DNA from: Hymenobacter aerilatus
GTDB lineage: Bacteria > Bacteroidota > Bacteroidia > Cytophagales > Hymenobacteraceae
Length of the DNA: 64,000 nucleotides
Direction: 5' to 3'
NCBI RefSeq assembly: GCF_022921095.1
Contig: NZ_CP095053.1
Coordinates: forward strand, 372,001 to 436,000
Shown here in pieces: positions 2,994-62,160 of the stretch. The position numbers and the translations under genes are program-made. A model generated the notes under the pieces. The model searched no databases. It saw nothing but the letters and a program-made list of their open reading frames with translations, and had not been told where the DNA came from. Positions within the stretch are counted from its first letter, which is position 1, and each line of letters starts with the position of its first letter.

Positions 2994-3092
2994 ACCGTCC
3001 TGTTGAGCGGAGCCGAAGCATCTCGCGTGCCGATGAAAAATAGTAACTCACATCAGCACGCGAGATGCTTCGGCTCCGCTCAGCAGGACGGT
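2994..3092. repeat. Intergenic inverted repeat, GAAGCATCTC subtype
   Basis: Two arms of about 37 bases, 2994-3030 and 3056-3092, are almost perfectly complementary around a 25-base loop. The arms carry GAGCGGAGCCGAAGCATCTC. It lies between the convergent aroA and response-regulator genes and could serve as a two-way terminator. It belongs to the repeat superfamily found about 15 times in this window. Confidence 0.9.
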
Positions 3093-3125
3093 CAAATAAT
3101 AATTGCTAATCTATCCCAGGGTGGG

Positions 3126-3539
3126 CTAGTTGTATAGCACCCGCGACCAAGCCTCACTGCCGTTGCGCATCACTGTGCGGATGGCGCTTTGCACTTGCTC
3201 GGGGTCAGCGTTTTTGAGGAGGTAGCCGTGGGCGCCCTCGGCGCGCAGACTTTCAATTAGCTCTGGCTCGTCGTGCATCGAGATGATGATGACGCGCACG
3301 TGCGGATACTGGGCGCGCAGCAGACGAGTGGTCTGGAGGCCGTCGAGGTTGGGCATTTGCAGGTCCATCAGCACCACATCGGGAACCAGGCCCTGGTCGA
3401 AATGCTCCAGCAGTTCTTCTCCATCACCGGCTTCAAACAGCACCTCCATCCCCGCAAAGCCGCTTAACAATGCGTGTAGACCTTTGCGAAACAGAATATG
3501 ATCATCGACCACCGCCAGGCGAATAGGGGTGTTGCTCAT
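3126..3539 (-). CDS. Response regulator with receiver domain only (NarL/LuxR-type, output domain missing)
   Basis: A 137-residue receiver domain. The acidic pocket D12-D13, phospho-acceptor D59 (LMDLQMPN), S87 in IIISMHDE and K109 in YLLKN are all present, so it should accept phosphate. The sequence resembles NarL-family regulators, which normally continue with a LuxR helix-turn-helix of about 65 residues. Here the protein stops at WSRVLYN directly after the receiver and no HTH coding follows in any frame before the inverted repeat at 2994-3092. The start at 3539 overlaps the kinase gene by 38 bases, which implies translational coupling. The frame is open further upstream, but VDDH at residues 11-14 fits this start. 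It may act through protein contacts or be a truncated remnant. Confidence 0.9.
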   Translation of the reverse strand: MSNTPIRLAVVDDHILFRKGLHALLSGFAGMEVLFEAGDGEELLEHFDQGLVPDVVLMDLQMPNLDGLQTTRLLRAQYPHVRVIIISMHDEPELIESLRAEGAHGYLLKNADPEQVQSAIRTVMRNGSEAWSRVLYN

Positions 3540-4347
3540 AGGTGGTGACAGGAATAACAGGATCGGAAGCAAGATACTCAAGGGGTAGGGAAATCCAAAC
3601 CCTGCTGCCCATGCCCGGTGCCGATTCATGTTGCAACATACCACGTAGTACGGCCACCCGACTGCGTAGGTTAGTGAACCCCAAACCTATACGAGCGCCC
3701 ACGGCCGGCTGAGCCTCTACCAGCGCTGGGTCGAAACCCACGCCGTTGTCGATGTACTGGATGGAAAGCGAATCGGGGCCGAAGTTGACGGTGATGTCGA
3801 TGTTGGCGGCCTGGGCGTGGCGCAGGCCATTGCCGAGTAGCTCCTGCACCACGCGGTAGATAATCAGCTCCTGTTGGGCCGAAAGGCGGCGGGGCTGCCC
3901 GTGCTGGGTAATCACCACGCGGGTAGGGCCGTCGGCGGGCACAGTGCGGGCCAAGGCTTCGAGGGCGAAGGGCAGGCCAAACTTTTGCAGGGTAGCGGGC
4001 AGCAGGTTGCGCGAAATGCGCCGCACCTCGCCAATCACCTGATCCAGCAAATCGGTAGCGTCGCGCGTGAGGTCGGGGCGGGAGAGGGCGTTGAGGTGCA
4101 TCTTCACGATGGCCAGGGTGGTGCCTACCCCGTCGTGCAGCTCGCCAGCAATGCGGCGGCGCTCTTCTTCTTGGGCCAGCAGGGCCGCTTCTAAGGCCTG
4201 CTGCTGGGCGGTGTCCTCCACAGCGCGCAATTGCTCCTGTTGCCGAAACAGCCGCCGCTGGTAGCGAATGACAAAGACGATGATGCCGCCCGAGAGCAGC
4301 ATCAGCAACGGCGTAATCAGAACCAGCGGGAGTAACGATTCGGGCAT
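3502..4347 (-). CDS. Sensor histidine kinase, HisKA_3 (NarX/DegS-type)
   Basis: A membrane-anchored histidine kinase of 281 aa. One transmembrane helix spans about residues 6-27, followed by a coiled-coil rich in Gln and Glu (30-65). The dimerisation/phospho-acceptor motif ERRRIAGELHDGVG holds H71. The ATPase domain has the N-box ELLGNGLRHA and the G1 box YIDNGVGFD, then IGLGFTNLRSR. No extracellular sensor domain is present, so it probably senses through the membrane helix or a partner. The response-regulator gene overlaps its 3' end. The adjacent upstream gene encodes a 7-helix membrane protein and is a candidate sensor partner. Confidence 0.93.
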   Translation of the reverse strand: MPESLLPLVLITPLLMLLSGGIIVFVIRYQRRLFRQQEQLRAVEDTAQQQALEAALLAQEEERRRIAGELHDGVGTTLAIVKMHLNALSRPDLTRDATDLLDQVIGEVRRISRNLLPATLQKFGLPFALEALARTVPADGPTRVVITQHGQPRRLSAQQELIIYRVVQELLGNGLRHAQAANIDITVNFGPDSLSIQYIDNGVGFDPALVEAQPAVGARIGLGFTNLRSRVAVLRGMLQHESAPGMGSRVWISLPLEYLASDPVIPVTTYEQHPYSPGGGR

Positions 4348-4440
4348 AGCACCACAAGTAAGCGACTATACGCCCGGCGGGTCGTACTAGCTACGAAGAT
4401 ATATATTTTCTCGGCCCGCTAGCACGCTGGTAAAACTGAG

Positions 4441-5166
4441 CTAGTTTGCCGGAATAGGACGCGACCGACGGCGCCAGCGCAGCCATTCAGGCAGCGCCTG
4501 CCGGGGCGGCCGATCCAGCGGGAACCGAGCAAACATCAGTGCCTGGAACATAGCCGCTACTCCTGCTGAGAGGATGAACGGAATCATATTGAGGAATATA
4601 AAGTCGAAAGCTTTGTATTGCTCTAAATACGAATTGATGATAGCTACTATGAGTGGTACTGAATAAAAGACAATGACGCTGATGGAAAATAAAAAGTCGG
4701 GCCGTTTCTCGATAACGGGTACGTGTTCCTCAGTCAGAAGTAGAATATAATATAAGGCATAAGTAAGTACCATCAAATTGCCGAAAGTACGGGCGTATAT
4801 ATTCACTCCTTTCATAAACCCATGCCAGAAAACGGCATCACCGAATGCAATGCATAGGAATAAAATATAGCCTACCTGTAAGATCCGTCGAAAGGTGGGT
4901 TTCGGAATAAGACGATAGTAGACTTGTGATAAAAAGCTTATTTCTAAGATTGAAGTAAGATGAAAACAAAAAATATTATTGTGTAAGTATAGACGTCCGT
5001 AACGTCCTGTATACCAAATAGCTAATAGACCAATTGTATAATGAAAGACAGGTCGGAAGGTGTGTGGTATATGACGCAGTCGGGGCAGAGCTGTAGCGAA
5101 GGGTACTAAGGCAAAAGCTTCAGCCCCCAAAGCCATTGCGTATAACAGCGTATCCCACCAAGGCAT
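4441..5166 (-). CDS. Seven-helix membrane protein of unknown function
   Basis: I do not recognise this 241-residue protein. Hydrophobic segments at about residues 6-26, 38-54, 64-86, 94-116, 124-146, 158-181 and 190-216 suggest seven membrane helices. The C-terminal tail (WLRWRRRSRPIPAN) is strongly basic and should be cytoplasmic by the positive-inside rule. The gene is visibly richer in A and T than its neighbours, which may be a sign of different history. It starts 9 bases after the stop of the unknown gene 5176-5580 and lies 93 bases before the histidine kinase on the same strand, so an operon is likely. A role as receptor for the kinase is an inference from position. Confidence 0.8.
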   Translation of the reverse strand: MPWWDTLLYAMALGAEAFALVPFATALPRLRHIPHTFRPVFHYTIGLLAIWYTGRYGRLYLHNNIFCFHLTSILEISFLSQVYYRLIPKPTFRRILQVGYILFLCIAFGDAVFWHGFMKGVNIYARTFGNLMVLTYALYYILLLTEEHVPVIEKRPDFLFSISVIVFYSVPLIVAIINSYLEQYKAFDFIFLNMIPFILSAGVAAMFQALMFARFPLDRPPRQALPEWLRWRRRSRPIPAN

Positions 5167-5175
5167 GGTAGCGGT

Positions 5176-5580
5176 CTAATGAACTAGCGGACTATCGTCC
5201 GAGCAATGATCTGGGCAGATAGTTCCATTATCCAATACCGGGTCATCTACAGAGCCATCTTCGCACTCGCTTACGTCCAGTAGGTCGTTGCCGTGCTTAT
5301 CGACGGCTACCAGCACCATACGGTTACGGTTGGTAGTGGTAGGATCAGTATCGTCGATGCCTTGGTAGATGCGGATGCCAACGCAGCGTTTACCCCAGCG
5401 CTTCATGAGCTTTTTGATGGCTTTGCGGCCGAAGAAAGTGGCGTAGGTAGGCTCTTGTGCTACGCCGTCTTCGTCAAACTCGGGGTGTTCTTGCTGATAC
5501 TTTTTGGTCCATTTGGCAGCGGTATCCAGCGGAATAGGGCTGCCCACTGAGGGGCTGTAGGGAGAGGAAGAGTTAGACAT
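5176..5580 (-). CDS. Hypothetical acidic protein with C-terminal Cys/His cluster
   Basis: Unrecognised 134-residue protein. The frame is open to 5652, but the ATG at 5580 gives the more natural N-terminus (MSNSSSPYSPS). The middle part is basic and looks folded (TYATFFGRKAIKKLMKRWGK, then GIRIYQGIDD and MVLVAVDKHGNDLLD). The C-terminal 30 residues are acidic, with three cysteines and a histidine (SECEDG, ICPDHCSDD), which could bind a metal or form a disulfide. No signal peptide or membrane segment is seen. The gap to the 7-helix gene downstream is only 9 bases, so the two are almost certainly cotranscribed. No function can be given. Confidence 0.75.
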   Translation of the reverse strand: MSNSSSPYSPSVGSPIPLDTAAKWTKKYQQEHPEFDEDGVAQEPTYATFFGRKAIKKLMKRWGKRCVGIRIYQGIDDTDPTTTNRNRMVLVAVDKHGNDLLDVSECEDGSVDDPVLDNGTICPDHCSDDSPLVH

Positions 5581-5690
5581 GCGAAAACGACAGATCAGGT
5601 GTGCAAGAGCAGAAAGCGTTGTCAAATATACAAGGCTTCCTATGCTTACCAAGAAGCTGAACAGTGAGCAACGCGACCAAGCCAGATGAG

Positions 5691-5909
5691 TTAATCTTCG
5701 TCTGGCTCTTCGTCTTCCTCGTCCAGGTTCTCAAACACCTGATCGATAGTTGATTCGATGCCGCGCAGCTTCTGTTTGCACAGCCGAATCAGCTCGGCCG
5801 AGCGTTGCACCTGGGTGGTGAGGTCGTCTACGTCTACGCTGTCGGTTTCCAGCGTGCGCAGGATGGTTTCTAGCTCTTCGATAGCCTGGCGGTAGGTCTG
5901 GTCAGACAC
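5691..5909 (-). CDS. xseB: Exonuclease VII small subunit
   Basis: A 72-residue all-helical protein with the family signature: YRQAIEELETILRTLE at the N-terminus, then LTTQVQRSAELIRLCKQKL, and a strongly acidic tail (EDEEPDED). It binds the XseA large subunit in several copies and is needed for degradation of single-stranded DNA to oligonucleotides. The start is GTG at 5909. xseA lies directly upstream on the same strand with a 66-base gap, so both subunits come from one operon. Confidence 0.93.
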   Translation of the reverse strand: MSDQTYRQAIEELETILRTLETDSVDVDDLTTQVQRSAELIRLCKQKLRGIESTIDQVFENLDEEDEEPDED

Positions 5910-5975
5910 TTTAAGGAATTAAGAAGTAATAATCTAAGAATGAAAAGCAGGGTGCAGATGATGGTAAAGCGCGGC

Positions 5976-7511
5976 TTACTTCTCCGGTTGTTGGGTCGGG
6001 CGGGGGGCAGTGAGGCGGGCGTACCACTCGGCCGAGGGTAGGCGCAATAACACAGCGGCGCCGGCGCTCAGTTCCTCAGGCAGCAAGGGCGCCCCTGAGG
6101 GCCGCAGCAGCTCCACCGTGTGGGATGGGGTAACGGTGGCGGTTTCCTCCACGCCAGCAGCGGCTACGCGGTAAACCGTTGCCCGAGCTAAGCGCAGCTC
6201 GGCGCGGTGTAGGAGCCGCTCGGCAGCTAGCTGCACGTGGTAGCGGTGGTGCACCAGTTGCTCGCAGCGGCGGCGGTGAAGTCGCCGGAAGCGCCGAGCG
6301 AGGCGGTAGCCCAACAGCCGGAGTCGTAGCTGCTGGTGGGCCAGGGCGCGGGCCGTGGCGCGGGGTAGGCGCTGGCGCACGCGGGCCAATGTGCGGTGCT
6401 GCTGGCGCAACTCGGTGCGGGCAACGGTAGCGGCCTGCCGTGTGCGCTGTTGCAAAGCGGTATGGTGCTGACGAAGCTGCTGCTGGGCTGCGTCGCGAAT
6501 GGTAAGGGCGTGGCGCCGCAGCTGCCGTTGCTGTTCGCGCACGTGGTCCTGGGCCAGCTCCCGGATACGCCCGGCGTAGCCACTCAGCACTGCATCCAAT
6601 CGGGCCAGGCGCTCAATCAGGAAAACAGCTGTGGCCGTGGGTGTTTTCAGGCTGAGGTGGGCCGTGAGGTCTAGTACGGCTTCGTCGCGCTCGTGCCCGA
6701 TGCCGGTGAGCACAGGTAAGGGGAAGCTACCGACGGCTGCCGCCAACCCAAAATCATCGAAGGCCAGCAAATCGGTTTTGGAACCACCCCCGCGGATAAT
6801 GACCACCACATCGAACTGCTGGCGCTGCGGCCGCACAGCATCTAGCGCCGCCCGGATACTGGCGGGCGCCTCCTGGCCCTGCATGGAAGCGGCAAACAGC
6901 GTCACTTCAAAGGCATACGGTGCCTCGCGCAGTTGCTGCATAAAGTCCTGCAAGCCCGCAGCCGTGGGCGACGAAATAACGGCCAGCCGCTGCGGGGCCA
7001 GGGGTAGGGGTAGGCGCTGCTGGCGCTCCAGCAAATCCTGCTCGGCTAGCTTGCGGATGGTTTCGCGGCGCTGGCGGGCCAAGTCGCCCACGGTGTAGCT
7101 GGGGTCGAGGGCTACCACGTCCAGCGAAAGGCCATACTGCTCATGAAACTTCACCTGCACGCGCAGCATCACCTTCAGGCCAATCTGCAACTCCTGACCG
7201 GTTTGCTCCGCAAAAACCGGGGCCAGCTGCTGGTAGCGCTGACTCCAGATGGTGGCGCGGGCCTGTGCTTTTAGCTCGGCGCCGCGGCCGGTGGTGTGCT
7301 GGTCGGTGAGCACAAGGTAACAATGGGCACCGTCGTAGCGGGGGAGGGTAAGGTCGGCAATTTCGGCCACCACCCAGTAGGATTCCGCAAACCGCTCGCT
7401 CAGGGTCTGGCGCACGCGCGTGAGCAGCTCGCCCAAGGGCAGCGCTACCAGCGGCCGGCCGGGAGAAGCGGGCAAACCAGAGTCGGGACGACGATTATAG
7501 AGCGGTGGCAT
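5976..7511 (-). CDS. xseA: Exonuclease VII large subunit
   Basis: Catalytic subunit of exonuclease VII, acting on single-stranded DNA in the cytoplasm. The N-terminal OB-fold covers about residues 15-120 (LGELLTRVRQTL...WVVAEI). The catalytic core has the RGGGSKTDLLAFDD block, GIGHERDEAVLDLTAH and KTPTATA. A long Arg/Gln/His-rich coiled coil follows (about 280-450), where XseB binds, and then a short beta tail. At 511 residues it is longer than the usual 400-460, because of the extended coiled coil. I used ATG 7511; the open frame extends to 7604, but the added residues do not resemble the family. Confidence 0.95.
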   Translation of the reverse strand: MPPLYNRRPDSGLPASPGRPLVALPLGELLTRVRQTLSERFAESYWVVAEIADLTLPRYDGAHCYLVLTDQHTTGRGAELKAQARATIWSQRYQQLAPVFAEQTGQELQIGLKVMLRVQVKFHEQYGLSLDVVALDPSYTVGDLARQRRETIRKLAEQDLLERQQRLPLPLAPQRLAVISSPTAAGLQDFMQQLREAPYAFEVTLFAASMQGQEAPASIRAALDAVRPQRQQFDVVVIIRGGGSKTDLLAFDDFGLAAAVGSFPLPVLTGIGHERDEAVLDLTAHLSLKTPTATAVFLIERLARLDAVLSGYAGRIRELAQDHVREQQRQLRRHALTIRDAAQQQLRQHHTALQQRTRQAATVARTELRQQHRTLARVRQRLPRATARALAHQQLRLRLLGYRLARRFRRLHRRRCEQLVHHRYHVQLAAERLLHRAELRLARATVYRVAAAGVEETATVTPSHTVELLRPSGAPLLPEELSAGAAVLLRLPSAEWYARLTAPRPTQQPEK

Positions 7512-7680
7512 TCGTGCAAGATACGCAATTTGGGCGGCGCTAGACGCAATGCAACGCTTCCCGCGGGGTAGTGTCTTATGCAGAATAACTTGTATTTTGG
7601 GCAATGCTCCACCTTGTTTTTAATGAAACGAGGTGAAGACTACGTTGCTTTTCAACACCACAAAACCTGTTCTCTTGCAC

Positions 7681-9807: not shown

Positions 9808-9838
9808 GCGGAACGTTAACTACTGTTTCGTGAAACCG

Positions 9839-9931
9839 TCATGCTAATCCTGTCGAAGCATCTCTATGTGAGTAATTTTTAGCGATTACAGGGAAGCAGT
9901 AGAAACGCTTCAATAAGCTCAGCATAACAAT
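9839..9931. repeat. Degenerate copy of the GAAGCATCTC inverted repeat
   Basis: Between the two M13 genes, TCGAAGCATCTCT on the left and AGAAACGCTTCAATAAG with GCTCAGCATAAC on the right form an imperfect inverted repeat. It resembles the better copy at 36163-36264 and appears to be a decayed member of the same superfamily. Confidence 0.6.
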
Positions 9932-9943
9932 CTTTAGAAATAA

Positions 9944-12194: not shown

Positions 12195-12213
12195 GCAGAC
12201 TATTGCCTGAAAC

Positions 12214-12272: not shown

Positions 12273-12330
12273 AAAGGCTAGCAACTAGCTCCCCTCCTTT
12301 TTTAAGGAGGGGAGCTAGTTGCTAGCCTTT
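12273..12330. repeat. Palindrome with CCCCTCC-TTTTTT-AAGGAGGGG core
   Basis: A near-perfect inverted repeat of about 26-base arms (GGCTAGCAACTAGCTCCCCT and its complement) between the convergent M13 and cyclophilin genes. A shorter relative with the same CCCCTCCTT core is at 23100-23121. It is a second, smaller hairpin family, distinct from the GTCATCCTGAG one, and can act as a two-way terminator. Confidence 0.75.
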
Positions 12331-16636: not shown

Positions 16637-16654
16637 AATGATGAAGTAATGCAT

Positions 16655-16704
16655 AACAGGCCATGTGTCATCCTGCGCTTGCGAAGGATGACACATGGCC
16701 TGTT
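16655..16704. repeat. Minimal copy of the GTCATCCTG hairpin between convergent genes
   Basis: A perfect 20-base inverted repeat (AACAGGCCATGTGTCATCCT and its complement) around the loop GCGCTTGCGA. It carries the outer part of the repeat family (GTCATCCTG and GCTTGCGAAGGATGAC) but lacks the inner GGACCTT section, so it looks like an internally deleted copy. It separates two convergent genes. Confidence 0.85.
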
Positions 16705-16752
16705 ACTCACCGAGTACCGCAAGTACGTACTAACGGTAGTGCGCGGGAAGCG

Positions 16753-18494: not shown

Positions 18495-18544
18495 CAGAAA
18501 GGCGGGAAAGAATGCTGCATGCAGCATTCTTTCCCGCCTTTCTG
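18495..18544. promoter_or_regulatory. Perfect 50-bp palindrome in a divergent promoter region
   Basis: Arms 18495-18519 and 18520-18544 are exact complements with no loop (centre GCTGCA|TGCAGC). It lies between the divergent antiporter (start 18416) and acyl-CoA-binding protein (start 18588) genes, so it is upstream of both and cannot be an ordinary terminator of either. The right end touches TAACTTGC, a possible -7 element, so it would cover the -10 to -60 region. Confidence 0.8.
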
Positions 18545-18836: not shown

Positions 18837-18863
18837 GTGGTGAGATGGTGAAGTTGTGAAATG

Positions 18864-19008
18864 GTGAGTAACAATACGGGTGTCATCCTGAGCAGAGCGA
18901 AGGACCTTCTCACGCGAGAACGAATCGTTGGTACGCTAGTCGTGCAACGTGATAAGGTCCTTCGCAAGCGGACGCCAGATGAAGGATGACACCCGTATTG
19001 TTACTCAC
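18864..19008. repeat. Intergenic nested inverted repeat with GTGAG outer arms
   Basis: Outer arms of 25 bases match perfectly (GTGAGTAACAATACGGGTGT and on into CATCC), then AGCGAAGGACCTTCTCACG pairs with CGTGATAAGGTCCTTCGC. The right arm has an extra 13 bases (about 18968-18980) that interrupt the pairing. It separates the convergent ACBP and CDGSH genes. Confidence 0.92.
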
Positions 19009-19014
19009 TATTTA

Positions 19015-21998: not shown

Positions 21999-22029
21999 AG
22001 GTGATAAAGTGGTGAGTGACAAATAGTAA

Positions 22030-22141
22030 ACGAGTGTCATCCTGAGCGCAGCGAAGGACCTTATCACGCGTGAACAAGTCGTAACAACGATTATCGTTCA
22101 CGCGTGATAAGGTCCTTCGCTGCGCTCAGGATGACACTCGT
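22030..22141. repeat. Intergenic inverted repeat, best-preserved copy
   Basis: Two perfectly complementary arms of 46 bases (22030-22075 and 22096-22141) enclose a 20-base loop. The core reads GTCATCCTGAGCGCAGCGAA then GGACCTTATCACGCGTGAAC. It lies between the convergent deoxynucleoside kinase and DUF2461 genes, flanked by GTGATAAAGTGGTGAG on the left and CTCACAACCTCACC on the right, which extend the pairing loosely. Confidence 0.95.
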
Positions 22142-22168
22142 TTTTCAACTCACAACCTCACCATTTCC

Positions 22169-22834: not shown

Positions 22835-22915
22835 GGCTGGGCATACGAGTCAGGGTAGGCGGGAGTTGGGTAGGAAGTGGAGATGCAAGTCAAGGGACTT
22901 GTGTCATACCAAGTC

Positions 22916-23020
22916 GTCTGTCATCCTGAGCTTGCGAAGGACCTTCTCACGTTGAATGACTTTCATGTCAACGACTCGTTCACGCGTGACAAGGTCCTTC
23001 GCAAGCTCAGGATGACAGAC
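22916..23020. repeat. Intergenic inverted repeat, GTCATCCTGAG subtype
   Basis: Perfect 30-base outer arms (22916-22945 and 22991-23020: GTCTGTCATCCTGAGCTTGC then GAAGGACCTT) around a longer, weakly paired centre with ACGACTCGTT. It lies between two genes of the same strand, downstream of the MOSC gene and upstream of the DUF2461 start. Confidence 0.92.
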
Positions 23021-23099
23021 AGCTTAGGGTGATAGATAATTTAGGATAGAAAGTGGCCATTGTGTTGTTCTTGCGACTTACCACCCCGGCCTTCGGCCA

Positions 23100-23979: not shown

Positions 23980-24088
23980 GCGGTAAAGGTAGGGAGGCAA
24001 CAGCAGAGACAATGGGAAGGAGTATCATTTCGAGCAGCGGAAGAAATCTTGCATGCTCTATTGGGTCGTTTCACGTACTCTCTCAATC

Positions 24089-24191
24089 TGTCCTGCTGAG
24101 CGGAGGCGAAGCATCCCGCGTGCTACGCTAATCCCAGCTGTCAGGGAGTTACCGGGAGCACGCGAGATGCTTCGACTCCGCTCAGCAGGGC
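24089..24191. repeat. Intergenic inverted repeat, GAAGCATCTC subtype
   Basis: TGTCCTGCTGAGCGGAGGCG then AAGCATCCCGCGTGC pairs with GCACGCGAGATGCTTCGACT then CCGCTCAGCAGG, with several mismatches. It is the same subtype as 2994-3092. Confidence 0.88.
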
Positions 24192-24213
24192 GTTTTGAAG
24201 GGAATTGGACGAA

Positions 24214-27008: not shown

Positions 27009-27056
27009 TAAAAGAAGCGGCGCGGCAGCTACCAAACTGGTAGCTGCCGCGCCGCT
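27009..27056 (-). terminator. Intrinsic terminator after the subtilase gene
   Basis: A perfect 19-base stem (AGCGGCGCGGCAGCTACCA and complement, loop AAC) followed on the minus strand by TCTTTT, about 22 bases past the stop codon at 27079. Confidence 0.88.
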
Positions 27057-27078
27057 TGCGCTGTGGTTTGCAAAAAGG

Positions 27079-31026: not shown

Positions 31027-31044
31027 GGTACTTATTAGTTATCG

Positions 31045-31164
31045 GTAAAAAGCACTTGTCATCCTGAGCTTGCGAAGGACCTTATGCTAGTTGAACGCCA
31101 ACTGTACGGTTCGCTCAACTAGCATAAGGTCCTTCGCAAGCTCAGGATGACAAGTGCTTTTTAC
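31045..31164. repeat. Intergenic inverted repeat with very long arms
   Basis: Arms of about 53 bases pair with one or two mismatches, from GTAAAAAGCACTTGTCATCC to GGATGACAAGTGCTTTTTAC. The inner part CCTTATGCTAGTTGAACG is unlike the CACG version in other copies. It lies between two genes on the plus strand and ends with a T run after the right arm (GTGCTTTTTA), so it may terminate the beta-helix gene. Confidence 0.93.
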
Positions 31165-31182
31165 GGACCACTTCACAACTCG

Positions 31183-33028: not shown

Positions 33029-33151
33029 GAAAAGCAGGTGTCATCCTGAGCGCAGTGAAGGACCTTCTCACAGCAGAACGATACTCGTAACAACGACTCG
33101 TTTTCACGTGAGAAGGTCCTTCGCTGCGCTCAGGATGACATACGCTTTTCA
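33029..33151. repeat. Intergenic inverted repeat, GTCATCCTGAG subtype
   Basis: AGGTGTCATCCTGAGCGCAG then TGAAGGACCTTCTCAC pairs with GTGAGAAGGTCCTTCGCTGC then GCTCAGGATGACA. The loop contains GAACGATACTCGTAACAACG and ACTCGTT, an inner hairpin shared by several copies. GTGAAAGGGTGAAG lies on the left and CTTCACAAACTCACCCTTTC on the right. It separates convergent genes. Confidence 0.92.
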
Positions 33152-34481: not shown

Positions 34482-34564
34482 GTCTGTCATTTCGAGCGTA
34501 GCGAGGAATCTGGCGCAACCGTTGTGGGTGCATACTCAGATTACTCGCTACGCTCGGAATGACA
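34482..34564. repeat. Inverted repeat inside the sus operon, TCGAGCGTAGCGAGGAATC subtype
   Basis: CTGTCATTTCGAGCGTAGCG then AGGAATCTG pairs with CAGATTACTCGCTACGCTCG then GAATGACAG. It is a divergent member of the repeat superfamily, located in the 132-base gap between susD and the third lipoprotein gene. Confidence 0.9.
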
Positions 34565-34573
34565 GCAGGCCTT

Positions 34574-36162: not shown

Positions 36163-36264
36163 CTGTTATGCTGAGCGGAGGCGGAGTATCTCTGCTGTAA
36201 GCTACTTTTAGTTGGTAGCAACGAAGCAGTAGAGATGCTTCGACTTTGCTGCGCTCAGCATAAC
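36163..36264. repeat. Inverted repeat between susC and susD, GAAGCATCTC subtype
   Basis: GTTATGCTGAGCGGAGGCGG then AGTATCTCTGCT pairs with AGCAGTAGAGATGCTTCGAC and GCTCAGCATAAC, with several mismatches and an insertion in the right arm. It sits inside the presumed susCD operon. Confidence 0.88.
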
Positions 36265-41553: not shown

Positions 41554-41633
41554 GCTCCAACTCCTTCTTGTACACAACACCCCCTACCCCAGCACTGGGG
41601 TAGGGGGTGTTGTGTACAAGAAGGAGTTGGAGC
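41554..41633. terminator. Large bidirectional hairpin between convergent genes
   Basis: About 39-base perfect arms (GCTCCAACTCCTTCTTGTAC, ACAACACCCCCTACCCCAG and complement) with a two-base centre. It starts directly after the DUF2059 stop codon and ends 14 bases before the DUF2905 stop. There is no T run, so it may act as an mRNA end stabiliser rather than a classical terminator. Confidence 0.75.
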
Positions 41634-41929: not shown

Positions 41930-41980
41930 AAAAAAATAGAGGCCGTGCGGAAAGCAATCAGTTGCTTTCCGCACGGCCTC
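41930..41980 (-). terminator. Intrinsic terminator after the NagZ-type fusion gene
   Basis: GAGGCCGTGCGGAAAGCAA and its exact complement form a 19-base stem, followed on the minus strand by TATTTTTTTC, about 22 bases after the stop codon at 42002. Confidence 0.9.
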
Positions 41981-42001
41981 TGCACGTGGCAGCCGCTGGC
42001 G

Positions 42002-52307: not shown

Positions 52308-52336
52308 TGAAAGGGGATGTTTGTGAGAGATTGAGA

Positions 52337-52489
52337 AGGTGAAAGGGTGAGTTTTGATGTTCTGTCATCCTGAGCAGCGCGAAGGACCTTATGCCCGCAG
52401 AACGAGTCGTTGGTACGCTTGTCGTTCACGTGTGAGAAGGTCCTTTGCAAGCTCAGGATGAGAGAACATCGAAACTCACCCTTTCACCT
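52337..52489. repeat. Intergenic inverted repeat with GTGAAAGGGTGAG outer arms
   Basis: The outer arms AAGGTGAAAGGGTGAGTTTT and CTCACCCTTTCACCTT pair, then GATGTTCTGTCATCCTGAGC with GCTCAGGATGAGAGAACATC. The inner right arm reads AAGGTCCTTTGCAAG. The loop contains GAACGAGTCGTTGGTACG. It lies between metE and the next plus-strand gene and shows that the GTGA-rich flanks are part of the element. Confidence 0.9.
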
Positions 52490-52588
52490 TCTTATTGAGG
52501 GTGCGGCCCGTATTTTGCGGGGCGGCGTACGGCTGCATGCTTTATTGGCGTTGTAGCCAGACGCTCGTTCATCTAATCTTCCTTTGCT

Positions 52589-53824: not shown

Positions 53825-53846
53825 GAGGGTAGGATAGAGTTTGTCC

Positions 53847-53966
53847 AAAAACCGCCTGTCCTCCTGAGCAGCGCGAAGGACCTTCTCACGCGTGAACAAC
53901 TATCGTAATAACGACTCGTTCTACCGTGAGAAGGTCCTTCGCAAGCTCAGGAGGACAGGCGGTTTT
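53847..53966. repeat. Intergenic inverted repeat with paired base changes
   Basis: AAAACCGCCTGTCCTCCTGA and on to GAAGGACCTTCTCACG pair with CGTGAGAAGGTCCTTCGC and CTCAGGAGGACAGGCGGTTT. The otherwise invariant GTCATCCTGAG is GTCCTCCTGAG here, and the opposite arm carries the matching CTCAGGAGGAC, so pairing is preserved. The right arm ends on the base before the GAF gene's stop codon. Confidence 0.92.
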
Positions 53967-56386: not shown

Positions 56387-56947
56387 TTAGGGTACTAGCG
56401 GAGCATAGGATATTTTGTTGAGGTCGATGCCGGATTGTAGCGTTCTGCCGTTATAAAGATCTATGGTTTTAAGCGTATTCATGTAATAAGTGCAGCAGCC
56501 ATCTTCATCGTTGAACCCGCCTTGCAATTGGACGTTTGTAATATCGAAACGCAGTACTTTAGTTTTGCCAGTGGTATCAGCCGGATTCGGCGTGTAAATC
56601 TCGTACGTGTAAGCATTGAGCTTACGGTTAGCCGTGGCTACAAACGGGGTATTATTACCGATGGCGAGGTTGCGGTTTGTCGATGAATCAGCGGCTGTGC
56701 TTATCAACCGAGCAGTATCGCGCACTGGAGGGCCAGGAGTAGGTGTTGGAATAGCGTTGGGCTTAGGCGTATAAGTTCGGACGATATACACGGTTTCAAT
56801 AGCTTCGTCTGTCACCGAAGGTGCAAACCGAAAAAATAGCGTATCAGCATTCTTTTCCCGATTATCACAGGCGACGCTGCCGCAGCAGGCCGCCGTAGCA
56901 AAAGCAAGAAGAGAAAGAAACAGCCAGGAAAAGGAGGTGCGTAGCAT
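56387..56947 (-). CDS. Lipoprotein of unknown function
   Basis: A 186-residue lipoprotein. The signal peptide ends LLAFATAACCGSVACD; either of the two adjacent cysteines could be lipidated. The mature part is soluble and beta-rich, with a Pro-rich loop (KPNAIPTPTPGPPVRD) and repeated strands (ETVYIVRTY, YTYEIYTPN, VLRFDITNVQLQGGFNDEDG). Four further cysteines might form disulfides. No known family is recognised. ATG 56947 gives the proper signal, although the frame is open to 57073. Confidence 0.8.
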   Translation of the reverse strand: MLRTSFSWLFLSLLAFATAACCGSVACDNREKNADTLFFRFAPSVTDEAIETVYIVRTYTPKPNAIPTPTPGPPVRDTARLISTAADSSTNRNLAIGNNTPFVATANRKLNAYTYEIYTPNPADTTGKTKVLRFDITNVQLQGGFNDEDGCCTYYMNTLKTIDLYNGRTLQSGIDLNKISYAPLVP

Positions 56948-57044
56948 AACAGGACAAAGATAAGCAGCCGGTGCCGGATGCCTATGTACGTTGCAGAGGT
57001 AAGGATTATTGCTTCGGCACGCCACTGTTCTGTCAGTAAGGGTA

Positions 57045-57103
57045 GTCAAGAAACACCAGCGCCGCCCCAACAATCGTCGGGGCGGCGCTGGTGTTTCTTG
57101 ACA
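57045..57103 (-). terminator. Strong hairpin after the second lipoprotein gene
   Basis: GTCAAGAAACACCAGCGCCG then CCCC and its exact complement form a 24-base stem with a short loop, about 15 bases past the stop at 57118. No clear T run follows, so it may also act as a stabiliser. Confidence 0.65.
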
Positions 57104-57117
57104 AGCGGCAGTAATTA

Positions 57118-57759
57118 TTAATAAGCTGCGCCAATAATGGTTTCTACTGGGCCCGTGTGCAGCAGCTGCTGGCGCAGGGTGTCAGCATCTTCGGCCAGCT
57201 GCGGACGAATCTGGCTGAGCGCCTGCCGCAGGGCTTCTACGTCGGCCAGGCGCGGGGCCTTGCTCTGAGAGTAGCCGTGGTACATGGCCACCCGCACGTT
57301 CGACTTACCCGAGCCGGTGTAAGTGCCCAGCACGTGGCCTTGGGCATCCATAATCTGTACTTCAGCCTGAATATCGGTGCAGTAGTTTTCGAGGGGTAGG
57401 CCCAGCAAGCTGGGGGTCAGCAACGTTAGCATCTGTAAGGCCTGAAAGCCCTTGCCCTTGCGCGTAACGTCGGCCTTAATTACTTGCAATTTGGCGTAGC
57501 CGAATACTGTGCTATCAGTGGGCTCTAGCACGTTGCGCTTCATCTCCGTATCGAACAGCTTCTCGGGGTCGTCGGGGTAGGCGCCTTCGGTAGCCATTAG
57601 CGGGCCGGGGTCTACGGCCAGCTCTAGTGCTGGCAACCGGTTTTCGATGATGTTGACCTCGCTTTTTGCCATAATCTGGCTAGCTGAGCGGCAGCCGATA
57701 AGCAGCAGCGTGAGCGGTAAGATCAAATGCAAAGAGCGAGAAACCAGAGAAGAGTACAT
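57118..57759 (-). CDS. Lipoprotein of unknown function
   Basis: A 213-residue lipoprotein with signal peptide LHLILPLTLLLIGCRSASQ. The mature part is mixed alpha/beta: LQVIKADVTRKGKGFQALQM, a hydrophobic segment LTLLTPSLLGLPLENYCTDI, then AEVQIMDAQGHVLGTYTGSG, which looks like a beta-hairpin typical of proteins that hold a lipid or peptide. A helical end (EALRQALSQIRPQLAEDADT) follows. No family is recognised. ATG 57759 starts the signal. Confidence 0.82.
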   Translation of the reverse strand: MYSSLVSRSLHLILPLTLLLIGCRSASQIMAKSEVNIIENRLPALELAVDPGPLMATEGAYPDDPEKLFDTEMKRNVLEPTDSTVFGYAKLQVIKADVTRKGKGFQALQMLTLLTPSLLGLPLENYCTDIQAEVQIMDAQGHVLGTYTGSGKSNVRVAMYHGYSQSKAPRLADVEALRQALSQIRPQLAEDADTLRQQLLHTGPVETIIGAAY

Positions 57760-57979
57760 AGTTCAGGCGAATAGAAGGTCGAAGATAGAAACTCTCTACG
57801 CACCTTGTATGCCAGCCCTTTACGTATCAGATAGATTGTTTAATACTTAAAAATTAATATTTGATAAGTGCAAAGTATAGTATGACTTTTTCGATACAGG
57901 GTAGGATTCGGACTTAAGACGCTTTTCCATTTGGAAATCGGACCGTCCCTATTCAATTAAGCATCAACTAGAAATGCGA

Positions 57980-58024
57980 AACGCTCCCTCAGTCACCGGA
58001 AAGCCCGATTGAATGAGGGAGCGT
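57980..58024 (-). terminator. Probable terminator after the symporter gene
   Basis: ACGCTCCCTCA and TGAGGGAGCGT pair across a 22-base loop, starting about 20 bases after the stop codon at 58044. On the minus strand the stem is followed by TTCGCATTTC, so the T run is weak. Confidence 0.5.
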
Positions 58025-58043
58025 ATGGAGGCGGCAAACAAGA

Positions 58044-59465
58044 CTAGTGGCCTGAATGAGCCAGTGTGCTATCGGCTTCGGCCAGTTCCGTTACGGGCTC
58101 CGGGGCCACGTAATTGTCGATAAACTCACCTTCCCAGCGGGCTACCACCGCCGAGGCTAGGCAGTTGCCCATCACGTTTACGGCGGTACGGGCCATATCC
58201 ATTAGCGCATCGATACCGAGGATGATGAAGACCGGCCAAGAGGGTAGATTGAAGGAAGAAACGGTAGCCAGCAGAATAACCAGGGAAGCGCGCGGCACGC
58301 CGGCCACGCCTTTGCTGGTGAGCATTAGCGTAAACACCATCACCAACTGCTGCCCAAGCGACAGCTCGATACCTGCGGCCTGGGCTACAAAAATGGCCGC
58401 CAGAGACAGGTAGAGGGTAGTGCCATCGAGGTTGAACGAATAGCCCGTGGGCATCACGAAGGCTACAATGCGGCGCGGTACGCCCACGCTTTCCATGGCC
58501 TCCATGGCGCGGGGTAGGGCAGCTTCGGAGGAGGTAGTAGCGAAGGCAATACTAACCGGCTCGGCAATAGCCGACACAATGCGCTTTACGGGCAGGCGCG
58601 CGATAAGGGCCACGGGTAGCAGGATCAGCAGCAGGAAGGCTATAAGGGCGCCGTAGAGTGTGAGCAGCAGTTGAAAGGCATTTACCAACGGTCCGAAGCC
58701 CATCTTGCCCACCGTGTAGGCCAAGGCGCCGCCTACCCCAAAGGGAGCAAAAAACATGACCACGTTGGTGAATTTAAACATCACCTCCGATAGGCTTTCT
58801 GTCCAGCTGAGCATGGGTTGCCGGTGCTTGGAGGGCACCATGGCCAGACCAATGGCGAAAATGATGGCGAAGATAACCACCTGCAACACCTGTCCCTCGG
58901 CCACCGACTTGGCAATATTCTCGGGGAAAATATGCAGGATAATGTCGCTGGTGGTCTGGTTGACGGTTTCCAGCTTTTCGGTGTCGGCGGCAATAGCGCC
59001 GCGGTTGATGCCCGCTCCGGCCTGCGTGAGGTTGATAGCCGCCAGCCCGATAAACAGCGCGAAGGTGGTAACTATCTCAAAGTATATCAGCGCTTTCACG
59101 CCCATGCGCCCTACCTGCTTCAGGTCGGCGTGGCCGGCAATACCTACTACTAGGGTGGCGAATACCAGCGGGGCAATAATCGTTTTTACTAAGCGCAGGA
59201 AGGCGTCGCTGAGCACCTTCATGTTGACGGCTGCCGCTGGGAAGTCGTGCCCAAACTCGGCTCCCACAAACATGCTGACTACAATCCAGAACGTGAGTGA
59301 GCGGCGGCGGGCTGCCAGTACGCCCAGCGCTACCAAGGCCAGCCAGCGTGCCACCAGGGGCACAACCGGAGCCAGCGTGAGCCAGCCGTACGCTTGACCG
59401 GCCGTGAGCAGGCCGGCTAGTAGAAATAAAACGAGGGTGAGTAGAACCAGGGGAGAAAACTTCAT
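58044..59465 (-). CDS. Dicarboxylate/amino acid:cation symporter (DAACS family)
   Basis: A 473-residue inner-membrane transporter that imports C4-dicarboxylates or acidic amino acids with Na+ or H+. Signature blocks: FLRLVKTIIAPLVFATLVVG, AFATTSSEAALPRAMEAMES (the hairpin 1 serine-rich motif), MPTGYSFNLDGTTLYLSLAA and the GIDALMDMARTAVNVMGN segment near the end, which binds substrate. The arrangement matches GltP and DctA. The N-terminus has an extra 70 hydrophobic residues compared with the short forms. ATG 59465 is used; a TTG three codons upstream is in frame. An exact -7 element lies 41 bases upstream of the start codon. Confidence 0.94.
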   Translation of the reverse strand: MKFSPLVLLTLVLFLLAGLLTAGQAYGWLTLAPVVPLVARWLALVALGVLAARRRSLTFWIVVSMFVGAEFGHDFPAAAVNMKVLSDAFLRLVKTIIAPLVFATLVVGIAGHADLKQVGRMGVKALIYFEIVTTFALFIGLAAINLTQAGAGINRGAIAADTEKLETVNQTTSDIILHIFPENIAKSVAEGQVLQVVIFAIIFAIGLAMVPSKHRQPMLSWTESLSEVMFKFTNVVMFFAPFGVGGALAYTVGKMGFGPLVNAFQLLLTLYGALIAFLLLILLPVALIARLPVKRIVSAIAEPVSIAFATTSSEAALPRAMEAMESVGVPRRIVAFVMPTGYSFNLDGTTLYLSLAAIFVAQAAGIELSLGQQLVMVFTLMLTSKGVAGVPRASLVILLATVSSFNLPSWPVFIILGIDALMDMARTAVNVMGNCLASAVVARWEGEFIDNYVAPEPVTELAEADSTLAHSGH

Positions 59466-59505
59466 CAGCAGCAAAAAAGGAAAATACTTGGCGACGGAAA
59501 GTCAG

Positions 59506-59513
59506 CAAATATA
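59506..59513 (-). promoter_or_regulatory. Consensus -7 element (TATATTTG) of the symporter gene
   Basis: TATATTTG on the minus strand is an exact TAnnTTTG match, about 40 bases before ATG 59465, giving a leader of about 34 bases. Confidence 0.5.
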
Positions 59514-59543
59514 CTCCTTTGCGCGTGGCGCCCCAGCACTCGG

Positions 59544-60710
59544 CTAGTGCCCAATCACAATCCGCCGCACAATAGTTTTGTTGGCCATCTGGAGGCGTAG
59601 CGTATACAGGCCGATGGGCACGTTGGGCGAAACCTGAACGTCGGGCTGGCCGGTGATGGGTAGGGGGGCACTATACGCCCGCACGCCACTGGCATCCCAT
59701 AGCTCTAGGGTGGCAGTTTGGGGTAGGGCCGGCTGCACGCGCAAGTAGAAGGTGCCGTTGTTGGGAACAGGATACAGGCTTACTTGTAGCGGCACCTCTT
59801 TCACCTCCACTGCTTTGATAGGGGAATACACAGCCTGGGTACCGCAAAGCTGGCGCAAGCGGTAGTAGGTGGTGCCTAGCGGAGCACGCTGATCAATCAG
59901 GTCGTAGGTGTGGGCCTGCGTGGATGTGCCGGCGCCAGCCAGGCTACCAATTTCCTCAAACGTAACGCCATCGGAGGAGCGCTCTACTACAAAGGATTTG
60001 CTGTGGTGCTCCGTGGCGGTGGTCCAATGCAGTTGCACTTGCTGGCCTACACTGTTCAGCTCAAACTCGGTGAGGACAGGAGAGGGGTTGCCGTTTCTAT
60101 TAGTATATAATACGCCGTTGGGGACCACTTGCTGTATCATGTCGGGGCCGTCGTAGCGCAGTACCAGCCCCTGGCTGCCACCATGCTCGCCGTAGAATAC
60201 CCGTATGGTATGAAAACCAGCACTGAGCTTTTTGGTGGCCGTGGCCTCGCGGTAGCCGTGCGCGTCGCCAACATTGACGACCGTAGGCTGCGTGTCCTGA
60301 TCAAACCAAACGGAAGCGGCATCGTCGGAACCGAGGTAGAACGTGTAGGTGCCGCCCGTGAGAGCATATAGCTTACCAGTATACGTAGCGCTGAACTCGT
60401 CAGGGTTGCCGGGGGAGTTGTAGACGGCTACATCGCCCACGTTGAACATATCCGTCTGCCCAAACGGAAAGTTTAGCTCATTCACGGCACGATTGACAAT
60501 ACCTGGCTTTGCTCGCGCAAAAAAAGACAAGTCATCGTAGAAATACCCCCGGTAATAGGTAGCCAATAAGCCCGCTTCGCAGTCAGTAGCTGGAGTAGTC
60601 TGACCCCACGTAAACAAAGGCGACAGAATACTTACGCAAAAGAATACAGATAATGCTATATACTTTGCTGATTGTAGCCAACGAAAAAAAGCGTAAAAGT
60701 TAATTTTCAT
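59544..60710 (-). CDS. T9SS-secreted PA14-domain protein
   Basis: A 388-residue secreted protein. A signal peptide (IALSVFFCVSILSPLFTWGQ) is followed by a PA14 domain at about 45-205 (EAGLLATYYRGYFYDD, TYTFYLGSDDAASVWFD, GFHTIRVFYGEHGGSQGLVL), a sandwich fold that often binds carbohydrates. A fibronectin-like segment (LTEFELNSVGQQVQLHWTTA, SFVVERSSDGVTFEEIG, YYRLRQL) and a T9SS sorting domain (VSLYPVPNNGTFYLRVQP, GLYTLRLQMANKTIVRR) follow. ATG 60710 starts the signal; the frame is open to 60794. It is likely an adhesin or glycan-binding protein. Confidence 0.88.
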   Translation of the reverse strand: MKINFYAFFRWLQSAKYIALSVFFCVSILSPLFTWGQTTPATDCEAGLLATYYRGYFYDDLSFFARAKPGIVNRAVNELNFPFGQTDMFNVGDVAVYNSPGNPDEFSATYTGKLYALTGGTYTFYLGSDDAASVWFDQDTQPTVVNVGDAHGYREATATKKLSAGFHTIRVFYGEHGGSQGLVLRYDGPDMIQQVVPNGVLYTNRNGNPSPVLTEFELNSVGQQVQLHWTTATEHHSKSFVVERSSDGVTFEEIGSLAGAGTSTQAHTYDLIDQRAPLGTTYYRLRQLCGTQAVYSPIKAVEVKEVPLQVSLYPVPNNGTFYLRVQPALPQTATLELWDASGVRAYSAPLPITGQPDVQVSPNVPIGLYTLRLQMANKTIVRRIVIGH

Positions 60711-61012
60711 AATCTGGGTGGAAAAGACGTAGAGGGCAGAAAACGGCAAACGTGAAGGAGTAAAAAGGCAAGCGAGAAACAACCCAAAATCCAACTATAT
60801 TATCTTGCAATTGTAATATTCCAACGCCACCTGCTGCCATATACGCACACCACTTTCTGAGGTTTAAAATTATGGCATTGCGAGGAAAAAGAAAGAAAAA
60901 TAAAGGCTAAATACTATTCACAAAGTAGAGAGCTTCTTTCCATAAAAAGGTTGCAGTTCTTTGTGAAACTCACCGCCCGCGCCCTGAATAAGTTTTCGTT
61001 TCCTCTGGTTAT
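60711..61012. other. AT-rich divergent intergenic region
   Basis: No gene is seen in about 300 bases between the PA14 gene and the divergent epimerase gene. Both promoters must lie here. On the plus strand TTGCAGTTCTTTGTG near 60951 resembles a promoter but does not fit the consensus closely. Confidence 0.5.
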
Positions 61013-62029
61013 ATGCTGATCTGGACCCTTACACCCCTGCTATTGCCCCTGCGCTATACCTGGAAAATTGCCCGCAACGCTTCTGACAGCAAAACCAATC
61101 TAGTGGTACAGCTTACTGATGGGCAGGGGCAGTACCAGGGTAGGGGCGAGGCGGCGCCCAACGTGCGCTACGGGGAGTCGCCGGAGCGGCTGTTGCAGGA
61201 GTTTGGGCAGCTGCTGGCAGTGGGGCTGGGCCGTGTGAGCAGCTTGGCGGAACTGCAAGCCTTACTGACGGCCTACCCACCCGCCCACGCGTTGCGCTTT
61301 GCCTTAGAGTCGGCCTATCTGCACCGCGAGGCGGCACGATTGGGGCAGTCGGTGCCTGCGCTGCTGGGCGTACCCGCGCCGGCAGCACGTACGCCCACCG
61401 CGTTTTCCTTACCCATTATGGAACCGGGCGCTGTGGCTGGCTTTATGCAGGAGCAGGCCATGCAGCGCTTTCCTCTGCTGAAAATCAAAGTGAACCAGGA
61501 AAGTGGCTACGAGCTGCTGCGGGAGGTAGTGCGCGCCGCACCGGGGCACCTGTTGCTGATTGACGGCAATGAGTCCTGGGCCGATGCCGATGCTTTGTTG
61601 CTGTTCCTGGAGAAAATCGGGCAGTTGCCGGGCTTGCGCGTGCGCCTGCTGGAGCAGCCCCTACCCGCCGCCTGCACCACCGACTACGAATACCTGCGTC
61701 CCCGCACGCCCTACCCCCTGTTTGCCGATGAGTCGGTGACCGATACGGCCGATTTTGCGGCTATTGCCCAGCAGTTTCATGGCGTAAATATGAAGCTGAT
61801 GAAGGCCGGCGGTTATTATAATGGCCTACAGCTGTTTGCGCAAACCCGCGCTCATGGCCTGCAAACCATGCTGGGCTGCATGGTCGAAACCTCACTGGGC
61901 ATCTGGTCGGCCCTGCAGGTAAGTGCCCTAGCCGATGTATGCGACCTGGACGGCTTCCTAATTCTGCGCGACGAACCGTTTGGGCTAGTACGCGAGCAGG
62001 ATGGAGAGTTAGAAATGGCGGAGTTGTGA
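61013..62029 (+). CDS. Dipeptide epimerase (enolase superfamily, L-Ala-D/L-Glu type)
   Basis: A 338-residue cytoplasmic enzyme of the muconate-lactonising subgroup of the enolase superfamily. The catalytic and metal residues are visible: the Lys pair in LLKIKVN, D in LLIDGNESW, E in LLEQPLP, D in LFADES, and the second Lys in NMKLMKAGGYYNGLQLF, followed by TMLGCMVETSLG. The MLGCMxE block is characteristic of L-Ala-D/L-Glu epimerases, which recycle the murein dipeptide; the group is related to o-succinylbenzoate synthase, so other dipeptides are possible. The start is at 61013. Confidence 0.87.
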   Translation: MLIWTLTPLLLPLRYTWKIARNASDSKTNLVVQLTDGQGQYQGRGEAAPNVRYGESPERLLQEFGQLLAVGLGRVSSLAELQALLTAYPPAHALRFALESAYLHREAARLGQSVPALLGVPAPAARTPTAFSLPIMEPGAVAGFMQEQAMQRFPLLKIKVNQESGYELLREVVRAAPGHLLLIDGNESWADADALLLFLEKIGQLPGLRVRLLEQPLPAACTTDYEYLRPRTPYPLFADESVTDTADFAAIAQQFHGVNMKLMKAGGYYNGLQLFAQTRAHGLQTMLGCMVETSLGIWSALQVSALADVCDLDGFLILRDEPFGLVREQDGELEMAEL

Positions 62030-62040
62030 GCTTGTAAGTA

Positions 62041-62160
62041 GTGAGTAACAATACGGGTGTCATCCTGAGCTTGCGAAGGACCTTATCACGCTGGAATGAC
62101 AGGCGTACCAACGACTCGTTCTGCGGGCATAAGGTCCTTCGCAAGCTCAGGATGACACGC
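62041..62160. repeat. Intergenic inverted repeat, GTCATCCTGAG subtype
   Basis: GTGAGTAACAATACGGGTGT then CATCCTGAGCTTGCGAAGGA pairs with TCCTTCGCAAGCTCAGGATG then ACACGCATTTTCAC. The left flank through GTCATCCTGAG is identical to that at 18864. The loop has ACGACTCGTTCTGC. It lies between the convergent epimerase and DUF6799-like genes. Confidence 0.92.

Follow-up and report, generated by a model that had tools for sequence, protein, structure and literature searches.

Introduction

Repetitive extragenic palindromes (REPs) with a CGTC tag are a described class of bacterial repeats. In the available text of Di Nocera, De Gregorio, and Rocco (2013, PMC3733652), they carry a CGTC or TGTC tag, form inverted dimers at sites downstream of genes, have an 8-9 bp stem beginning with AT, and occur in several phyla, including Bacteroidetes; no dedicated transposase and no linked tyrosine transposase is reported there, and extinction of the transposase is offered as one explanation. 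Here, we analyzed repeats of this kind in a 64,000-nucleotide stretch of Hymenobacter aerilatus DNA (C1:372001-436000 of the 5.28 Mb genome G000), called the window below, together with a small GIY-YIG nuclease gene found between such repeats. The tag, the inverted dimers, and the sites downstream of genes are the same as in the published CGTC REPs. The Hymenobacter repeats differ from the published description in that their stem has a G-A/A-G interruption, their tails are CTT or CTC and not CCA, and a GIY-YIG gene sits between them.

The second system to be compared is that of REP-associated tyrosine transposases (RAYTs). The evidence for RAYTs, in the part of the paper available, was that the gene is always flanked by inverted REPs and changes together with them (Nunvar 2010, PMC2817692); the same flanking and joint change are now found for the GIY-YIG gene. 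As in the available descriptions of RAYT REPtrons (PMC2817692) and of REP doublets forming hairpins (REPINs; Bertels and Rainey 2011, PMC3116915), one gene lies between inverted REPs, the subtype changes with it, and gene-free doublets are scattered elsewhere. Unlike in RAYT systems, the enzyme is a GIY-YIG nuclease and not a HUH tyrosine transposase, and the tag is GTC-AT, not GTAG. With free-standing nucleases of the UPF0213 type (1zg2, BH0048), the protein shares the GIY-YIG catalytic domain; unlike theirs, the Hymenobacter gene has cognate REP flanks and occupies many sites. No link between GIY-YIG enzymes and REPs was found among the literature matches listed, so that a printed report may exist, and the term GIY is absent from the main texts of PMC3733652, PMC10969869, PMC6006769, and PMC2817692.

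On the basis of sequence comparison, we consider a small free-standing GIY-YIG endonuclease to be most likely the enzyme matched to these REPs, with a probability of roughly two in three. The comparison was made with 120 Hymenobacter genomes (the genus set) and with 296 genomes from 139 genera (the phylum set). H. profundi, the nearest named genome found, served as the comparison species, and two further genus genomes, G056 and G009, were used for replication and controls. Genes were predicted with a simple coding-score caller written for this analysis.

A GIY-YIG Gene Located between Inverted REPs

The half-site from which the repeats are built reads [T/C]GTC-AT-N-CTGAGC-loop-GCGAAG-N′-A. A gene for a 96-amino-acid GIY-YIG protein (L194:18382-18672, minus strand) was found while genes between solo half-sites were scanned. 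The protein matched the Pfam family PF01541 with an E-value of 5e-18, NCBIfam contained no family for it, and a search of solved structures returned 1zg2 as the sole relative (E 2.5e-5). The relative of this gene in H. terricola is likewise enclosed by half-sites, and matches to the protein are present in 99 of the 120 genus genomes. Another gene between solo half-sites, L173:15153-16046, was dropped as an ordinary histidine-pathway-like gene.

The surroundings of the gene were examined at 70 loci, which are part of the genus matches listed (30 chosen by the search tool and 40 chosen by us across 52-83% identity). Half-sites were present on both sides at all 30 tool-chosen loci (within 600 nt) and at 34 of the 40 more divergent ones (within 700 nt), that is, at 64/70 combined, and each of the 70 loci had at least one flanking half-site. 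A plus-strand half-site upstream was combined with a minus-strand half-site downstream, like terminal inverted repeats, at 61 of 70 loci. Control genes of at most 600 nt were flanked on both sides (700 nt, any orientation) in 5 of 352 cases: 4/158 in H. aerilatus, 1/86 in G056, and 0/108 in G009. By their flanks, the 70 loci fall into 22 clusters, the largest of which contains 34 loci. The gene is uninterrupted over the aligned part at 69/70 loci, and the ratio of nonsynonymous to synonymous substitution rates (dN/dS) has a median of 0.06 (51 pairs). As judged from these alignments, the GIY-YIG gene is under strong purifying selection.

An extra reading frame was present between the outermost REPs in 28 of 61 Hymenobacter cassettes by a mechanical count, and 3 of the 10 cargo frames scanned matched immunity families (SMI1/KNR4, Imm50, and Barstar). 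In cassettes L272-L304 and L321, the frame beside the GIY-YIG gene varies by species and the GIY-YIG gene is conserved.

REP Subtype and Nuclease Clade

The bases N and N′ are paired in 229 of 242 half-sites, compared with 133 expected if they were independent, which indicates covariation, and the N-N′ pair defines three subtypes, C-G, G-C, and T-A. The subtype was then compared with the identity of the enclosed gene to the query. Where the gene was 78% or more identical to the query, the flanks contained GTCATGCTGAGC in 69 of 73 cases; flanks of genes 62-76% identical had a G subtype with changed neighbouring bases in 25 of 31, and those of genes 52-59% identical had GTCATCCTGAGC (20/27) or GTCATTCCGAGC (5/27). 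The N base was equal in both flanks of 54/61 cassettes. On the protein tree, which has 69 rows, few columns, and many open forks, omits the short L301, and takes the label of L303 from a doubtful match, the subtype labels need 6 changes compared with 17.5 after shuffling, and none of 200 shuffles was as low. With one row per cluster, 4 changes were counted compared with 9.8, and none of 500 shuffles was as low. The enzyme and the REP subtype thus change together.

The original prediction had distinguished two main cores among the window repeats. They proved to be the C and G subtypes of one half-site, differing at the covarying base pair, and they are the same two types that flank the two GIY-YIG genes of the H. 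aerilatus genome, one G-type-flanked and one C-type-flanked. These two genes are located at C1:4678385-4678672 and C1:4650489-4650758. In the window element at 36163, the terminal 25 bases of the G-type-flanked cassette recur with one substitution. At locus L322 of the same genome, a GTAGG repeat array lies downstream of the GIY-YIG gene, between it and a C-type dimer.

Units outside Hymenobacter

In the plasmid collection, 36 records contained a match to the protein and 34 did so with a second query; 19 loci were examined. An inverted repeat spanning the gene at E ≤ 1e-3 was found at 14 of these 19 loci outside Hymenobacter, namely in Planktothrix, three Shinella, Rhizobium CIAT894, Neorhizobium, Novosphingobium, Azospirillum, three Sphingobium, two Sinorhizobium, and Aeromonas. 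Judged by neighbouring genes, the 19 loci come from about 14 sites, of which 10 are positive; one unannotated record was here taken as sharing its site with another. The repeats are of CGTC-REP form (CGTCATCC..GGATCCA and similar), and the CCA tail is present in the Shinella, Rhizobium, and Azospirillum flanks. In three positive records, an inverted repeat at E ≤ 1e-4 lay across 3/3 GIY-YIG genes compared with 2/110 other coding sequences; the control lists covered 44/46, 26/33, and 44/49 features, with some long or edge coding sequences left out.

In Azospirillum lipoferum, the unit is located directly 3′ of the sufB stop codon. The same site in A. ramasamyi, A. oryzae, and Azospirillum sp. 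B510 (95-96% identity) contains neither the gene nor a REP; therefore, the gene and its REPs arrived either jointly or in two steps that were not seen. In Shinella PSBB067, the same sufB-sufC gap holds a unit of its own, again with a GIY-YIG gene between two REPs. A DUF559 gene occupies that gap in Sphingomonas parapaucimobilis (L357:927-1337).

Structure of the Half-Site and the Elements of the Window

Paired halves face each other and measure about 98-100 bases end to end. Placement was studied in a 784 kb sample of the H. aerilatus genome, made up of the window plus 36 almost evenly spaced stretches of 20 kb each, in which head-to-head (plus-minus) pairs make up 53 of 86 elements; the reversed-sequence control gave 1 half-site vs 143. 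In H. aerilatus, GTC is preceded by T in 83% and by C in 14% of 106 arms; in G056, it is preceded by C in 56% and by T in 33% of 48 arms. A stem starting with AT can form in the G and T types; the C types read GGACC, which makes the first pair A-C. The tails in Hymenobacter are CTT/CTA in the C type and CTC/CTT in the G and T types. Outside the core, a weak consensus AAAA-NCG-NCT is common to H. aerilatus and G056, so the element reads as a stem bordered on either side by A and T tracts. Folded as RNA, a single C-type half has -5.9 kcal/mol (z -0.6), and the whole element 22028-22143 forms one hairpin with -103.7 kcal/mol (z -20.2). The repeats fit head-to-head dimers of CGTC-type REPs in their TGTC variant with respect to tag, dimer form, and location, and fit less well in their tail and stem.

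All 14 positions listed in the original prediction belong to the superfamily, and the half-site search recovered every one of them (26 half-sites). Among the 25 longest inverted repeats listed for the window, 12 of the 14 positions appear, 9839 and 36163 not being among these. Matches to GTCATCCTGAGC with at most 2 mismatches numbered 26 in the window, compared with a mean of 4.0 and a largest value of 9 in 100 shuffles. The statement that all copies lie between genes was also borne out (14/14 by the simple gene caller).

No strand was assigned to the elements. The C-type REP dimers in convergent gaps are 18859..19013, 22028..22143, 33029..33150, 53848..53966, and 62050..62165. The first of these has a disrupted right half, one recognised half-site, and long mirrored outer arms, and its orthologous element is found in H. 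profundi; the arm bases of 22028..22143 are paired 48/48; the mirrored AAAACCGCCT arms of 53848..53966 are kept in H. profundi. C-type dimers in tandem gaps are 22904..23032, which is present in H. profundi, 31037..31172, with mirrored AAAAAGCACTT arms that differ in H. profundi and are mirrored there too, and 52334..52492, with 42-base mirrored arms. The G-type dimers are 2994..3092 (convergent gap; detected both as an inverted repeat and by its half-sites), 24083..24198 (tandem gap; H. profundi keeps remnants only), and 36165..36264, whose right half is the 25-base cassette end described above. The element 9838..9928 (tandem gap) is a degenerate G-type form with one recognised half-site and a right end set by GTTATGCTGAGC, 34484..34565 (tandem gap) is a T-type dimer (GTCATTTCGAGC), and 16654..16705 (convergent gap) is a short form, a single hairpin whose 12-base outer arms are mirrored.

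The C-type half-site pattern GTCATCCTGAGCNNNGCGAAGGACCT matched the H. aerilatus genome 326 times with at most 3 mismatches (160 plus, 166 minus), and its reversed form gave 0 matches in the whole genome under the same limit. The pattern is present in 118/120 genus genomes, the copy number per genome ranging from 0 to 404 (404 in G056), and the general half-site form with 1 mismatch in 100/296 phylum genomes and 55/139 genera. The repeats are thus one widespread superfamily, as had been predicted; this superfamily is not an undescribed one, since it fits the CGTC-tagged REPs of PMC3733652. A literature search for the peptide name CHPERSEG found no matching paper, and literature matches to GTCATCCTGAGC were unrelated, as judged by title. 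At the gathering threshold, Rfam contained no family for the repeats; its sole match in the window was a cobalamin riboswitch (RF00174, 49607-49801), located upstream of a gene assigned by Pfam to cobalamin-independent methionine synthase. In another Bacteroidota genome (G322:C1:1372964-1374415), T-type half-sites are tandemly arrayed with a period of about 158 bases. Several H. profundi contigs (L157-L160, L197-L201) start or stop inside an element, and therefore the repeats break short-read assemblies.

Mirrored Outer Arms

The arms outside the core are copy-specific, yet mirrored within a copy. Perfect runs of at least 10 bases occur in 12 of 50 dimers, compared with 0.08% of 2450 pairings between copies. 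Arm identity just beyond the mirrored end falls from 96% to 30%, with a background of 29%; this end was chosen by score, so the drop is partly built in. The loops of both halves match each other in 29/44 dimers vs 8.4 after shuffling.

Orthologous gaps allowed the arms to be followed between species. Of 15 such gaps with an element in either species, H. profundi has one in 9. The arms of the elements 31045 and 52337 are not the same in the two species but mirror each other within each, and at 52337 a 5-base indel separates the species in both arms. The left inner half of 52337 is conserved at 44/46 positions in H. profundi, so this element was not simply replaced. Over seven scored ortholog pairs, the 12 outer bases had within-species values of 0.70 and 0.71 vs 0.59 and 0.63 between species; the inner halves showed no within-species excess.

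The idea that selection on RNA pairing made the arms was rejected, as G-U is not in excess over A-C among the stem mismatches on the transcribed strand (50 vs 44, p 0.61). The arms resemble an A-tract, a GC stem, and a T-tract, as if the element had been inserted in the loop of an existing terminator; this was set aside as the less probable reading because the weak AAAA-NCG-NCT consensus is common to the copies and to G056 and because the arms differ between species and are mirrored in each. The absence of a G-U bias and the species-wise mirroring therefore favor copying at the DNA level. We lean toward template switching during DNA replication, which would copy one outer arm onto the other and would be complementary to, and not exclusive of, spreading by a nuclease. 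It would yield both the long perfect runs and the species differences repeated in both arms, including the indel, and it is known to produce perfect hairpins (PMC8794818, in the available text). Against it, the mirroring is clear in this lineage only: runs of at least 8 were found in 15/50 dimers of H. aerilatus, 2/24 of G056, and 1/21 in a first look at G002, G056, and G066. The excess over the seven ortholog pairs is also modest and absent from the inner halves.

Degenerate GTGA tracts lie by elements, for example at window positions 52310-52360. At least two GTGA within 50 bases were found in 31% of 106 element arms vs 2.4% of 286 other intergenic stretches, and in 2% of 48 arms of G056.

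Proposed Unit and the Passenger Alternative

The full unit would consist of a REP, the GIY-YIG gene, sometimes with a cargo gene, and an inverted REP, and the approximately 100-base palindromes of the window would be gene-free forms of it. The nuclease may recognise REPs of its own subtype, folded into a hairpin or a cruciform, and may cut at the REP or at a target just 3′ of a stop codon, after which repair would copy or insert the unit. Palindromes landing at 3′ ends would be tolerated and could act as transcription terminators. We infer cleavage and mobility of the unit from sequence data. In the wider form of this proposal, the CGTC REPs across phyla would be versions without the gene of a novel kind of mobile unit, with a GIY-YIG gene between inverted REPs, that inserts just 3′ of stop codons by nuclease and repair and at times brings along exchangeable cargo, for instance, orphan immunity genes; for this, we regard the chances as evenly divided.

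Several observations weigh against assigning the nuclease this role. To our knowledge, no GIY-YIG enzyme is known to act as a transposase. Neither a target-site duplication nor an excised form was seen in the loci studied; the empty-site comparison of L308, L324, and L340 with H. aerilatus and G056 met flanks that are too diverged, and the matches for L324 and L340 are possibly coding. The largest flank cluster of 34 loci includes at least two sites of shared descent. The half-site count is unrelated to the presence of the GIY-YIG gene (median 46 in the 99 genomes with it vs 43 in the 21 without, p 0.56), in a blunt test that counted C-type half-sites while the gene search covered all clades. 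Three genomes rich in half-sites, G055 (343), G103 (285), and G045 (221), have no GIY-YIG match. Outside Hymenobacter, 5 of the 19 loci had no inverted repeat at the cut-off (Photobacterium, two Rhizobium from one site, Sphingomonas paeninsulae, and Spirosoma), the Spirosoma locus giving a weak repeat (E 4.9e-4) in another comparison. Finally, a nuclease gene inserting into existing REP dimers would give identical flanks, and the choice of target would give the subtype match.

This last point leads to a different explanation, in which the GIY-YIG gene would be a passenger of the homing type, cutting an existing palindrome and inserting between its halves, and the REPs would spread by other means. 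We consider it unlikely, although insertion sequences targeting REPs have been reported (PMC1525189, in the available text), and in one gap H. rubidus (L040:5446-5600) has the palindrome alone, whereas at ten other loci the gene is present there next to REPs. The empty Azospirillum sites hold no REP at all, and G009 has 2 half-sites in the genus scan, yet its GIY-YIG gene (L302) lies between half-sites. The nuclease matched to its REPs is our preferred reading.

Placement at Gene 3′ Ends

Tandem or convergent gaps hold 76 of the 86 elements of the sample: 51 are tandem, 25 convergent, 3 divergent, 4 coding, and 3 at sample edges. The four coding cases are all single halves. The median distance between the stop codon and an element is 26 bases, and that between an element and the next start is 84. 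In the window, the original prediction had counted elements at six of eight convergent gene ends; most do carry one, although the recount gave 7 of 10 convergent gaps, and the three without (at 12195, 20620, and 41554) contain unrelated hairpins instead. Convergent gaps are richer in elements because each has two 3′ ends. Calculated per 3′ end, the rates are equal, 0.126 for convergent (25 elements in 99 gaps, 198 ends) and 0.125 for tandem (51 in 409 gaps), with 3 elements in 86 divergent gaps, and G056 gave 0.098 and 0.101, respectively. A convergent-specific role was therefore rejected. What remains of the suggested function at gene ends is a REP-like element, concentrated at 3′ ends and compatible with RNA 3′-end formation, with no preference for convergent ends.

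A second terminator was found at 1/50 convergent ends with an element vs 42/114 without, and at 1/51 vs 30/256 tandem ends; matched for gap, the counts were 2/46 vs 57/295 (p 0.011), in a test that masks 25 bases around each element. Runs of at least four T beside the stem occur at 12/30 tandem downstream sides and 20/42 convergent sides, compared with 11% of random intergenic 22-mers. This supports, without proving, the use of the elements as transcription terminators. A reading in which the elements chiefly serve the host as terminators, maintained through selection on RNA, and are only incidentally mobile is in our view improbable. The scarcity of second terminators and the excess of T runs are as expected from it, although the masking tempers the former. 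In tandem gaps, however, upstream A runs (11/30) are about as frequent as downstream T runs (12/30), which makes the element symmetric, the stem mismatches lack the G-U excess noted above, and the copy number ranges from 0 to 404 inside one genus.

Other long perfect palindromes are present in the window, mostly at gene ends (12273-12330, 41554-41633, 41938-41981, 27015-27057, 57045-57102, and 18495-18544). Perfect palindromes with arms of at least 16 bases, not assigned to the family, were counted in 28/99 convergent gaps of H. aerilatus, 8/46 of G056, and 5/59 of G009, although one of them (L179:16521) in fact belongs to the family and had escaped the half-site search; one shuffle of the H. 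aerilatus sample contained 0.

RAYT Transposases

The RAYT suggested in the original prediction was searched for as PF01797 (Y1-type) transposase, and none was found in the H. aerilatus genome, nor was Y1_Tnp found in G056 despite its 404 half-sites. Y1_Tnp genes are present in 83/120 genus genomes and absent from 37, and the half-site count does not depend on them (median 45 with vs 46 without, p 0.89). Among 26 Y1_Tnp loci of 3.4-4 kb each, 3 hold a half-site pair, and none enclosing the gene was seen. Mobilisation of the repeats as REPINs by a RAYT, for which the inverted, extragenic, high-copy doublets of the available REPIN definition (PMC3116915) and the presence of Y1_Tnp genes in most of the genus would speak, is disfavoured by these own-genome, genus-wide, and locus tests to the point of being very improbable.

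Conclusions

CGTC REPs are among the commonest small bacterial repeats and were still without an enzyme in 2013 (PMC3733652). With the GIY-YIG nuclease as a candidate, the question of the missing enzyme is now directly testable with one protein and one set of DNA oligonucleotides. If the proposal is true, nuclease-based spreading would be added to the transposase-based ways in which such repeats spread, and the position of the repeats at gene ends would be accounted for. It would also indicate a carrier of small cargo genes, for example, immunity genes.

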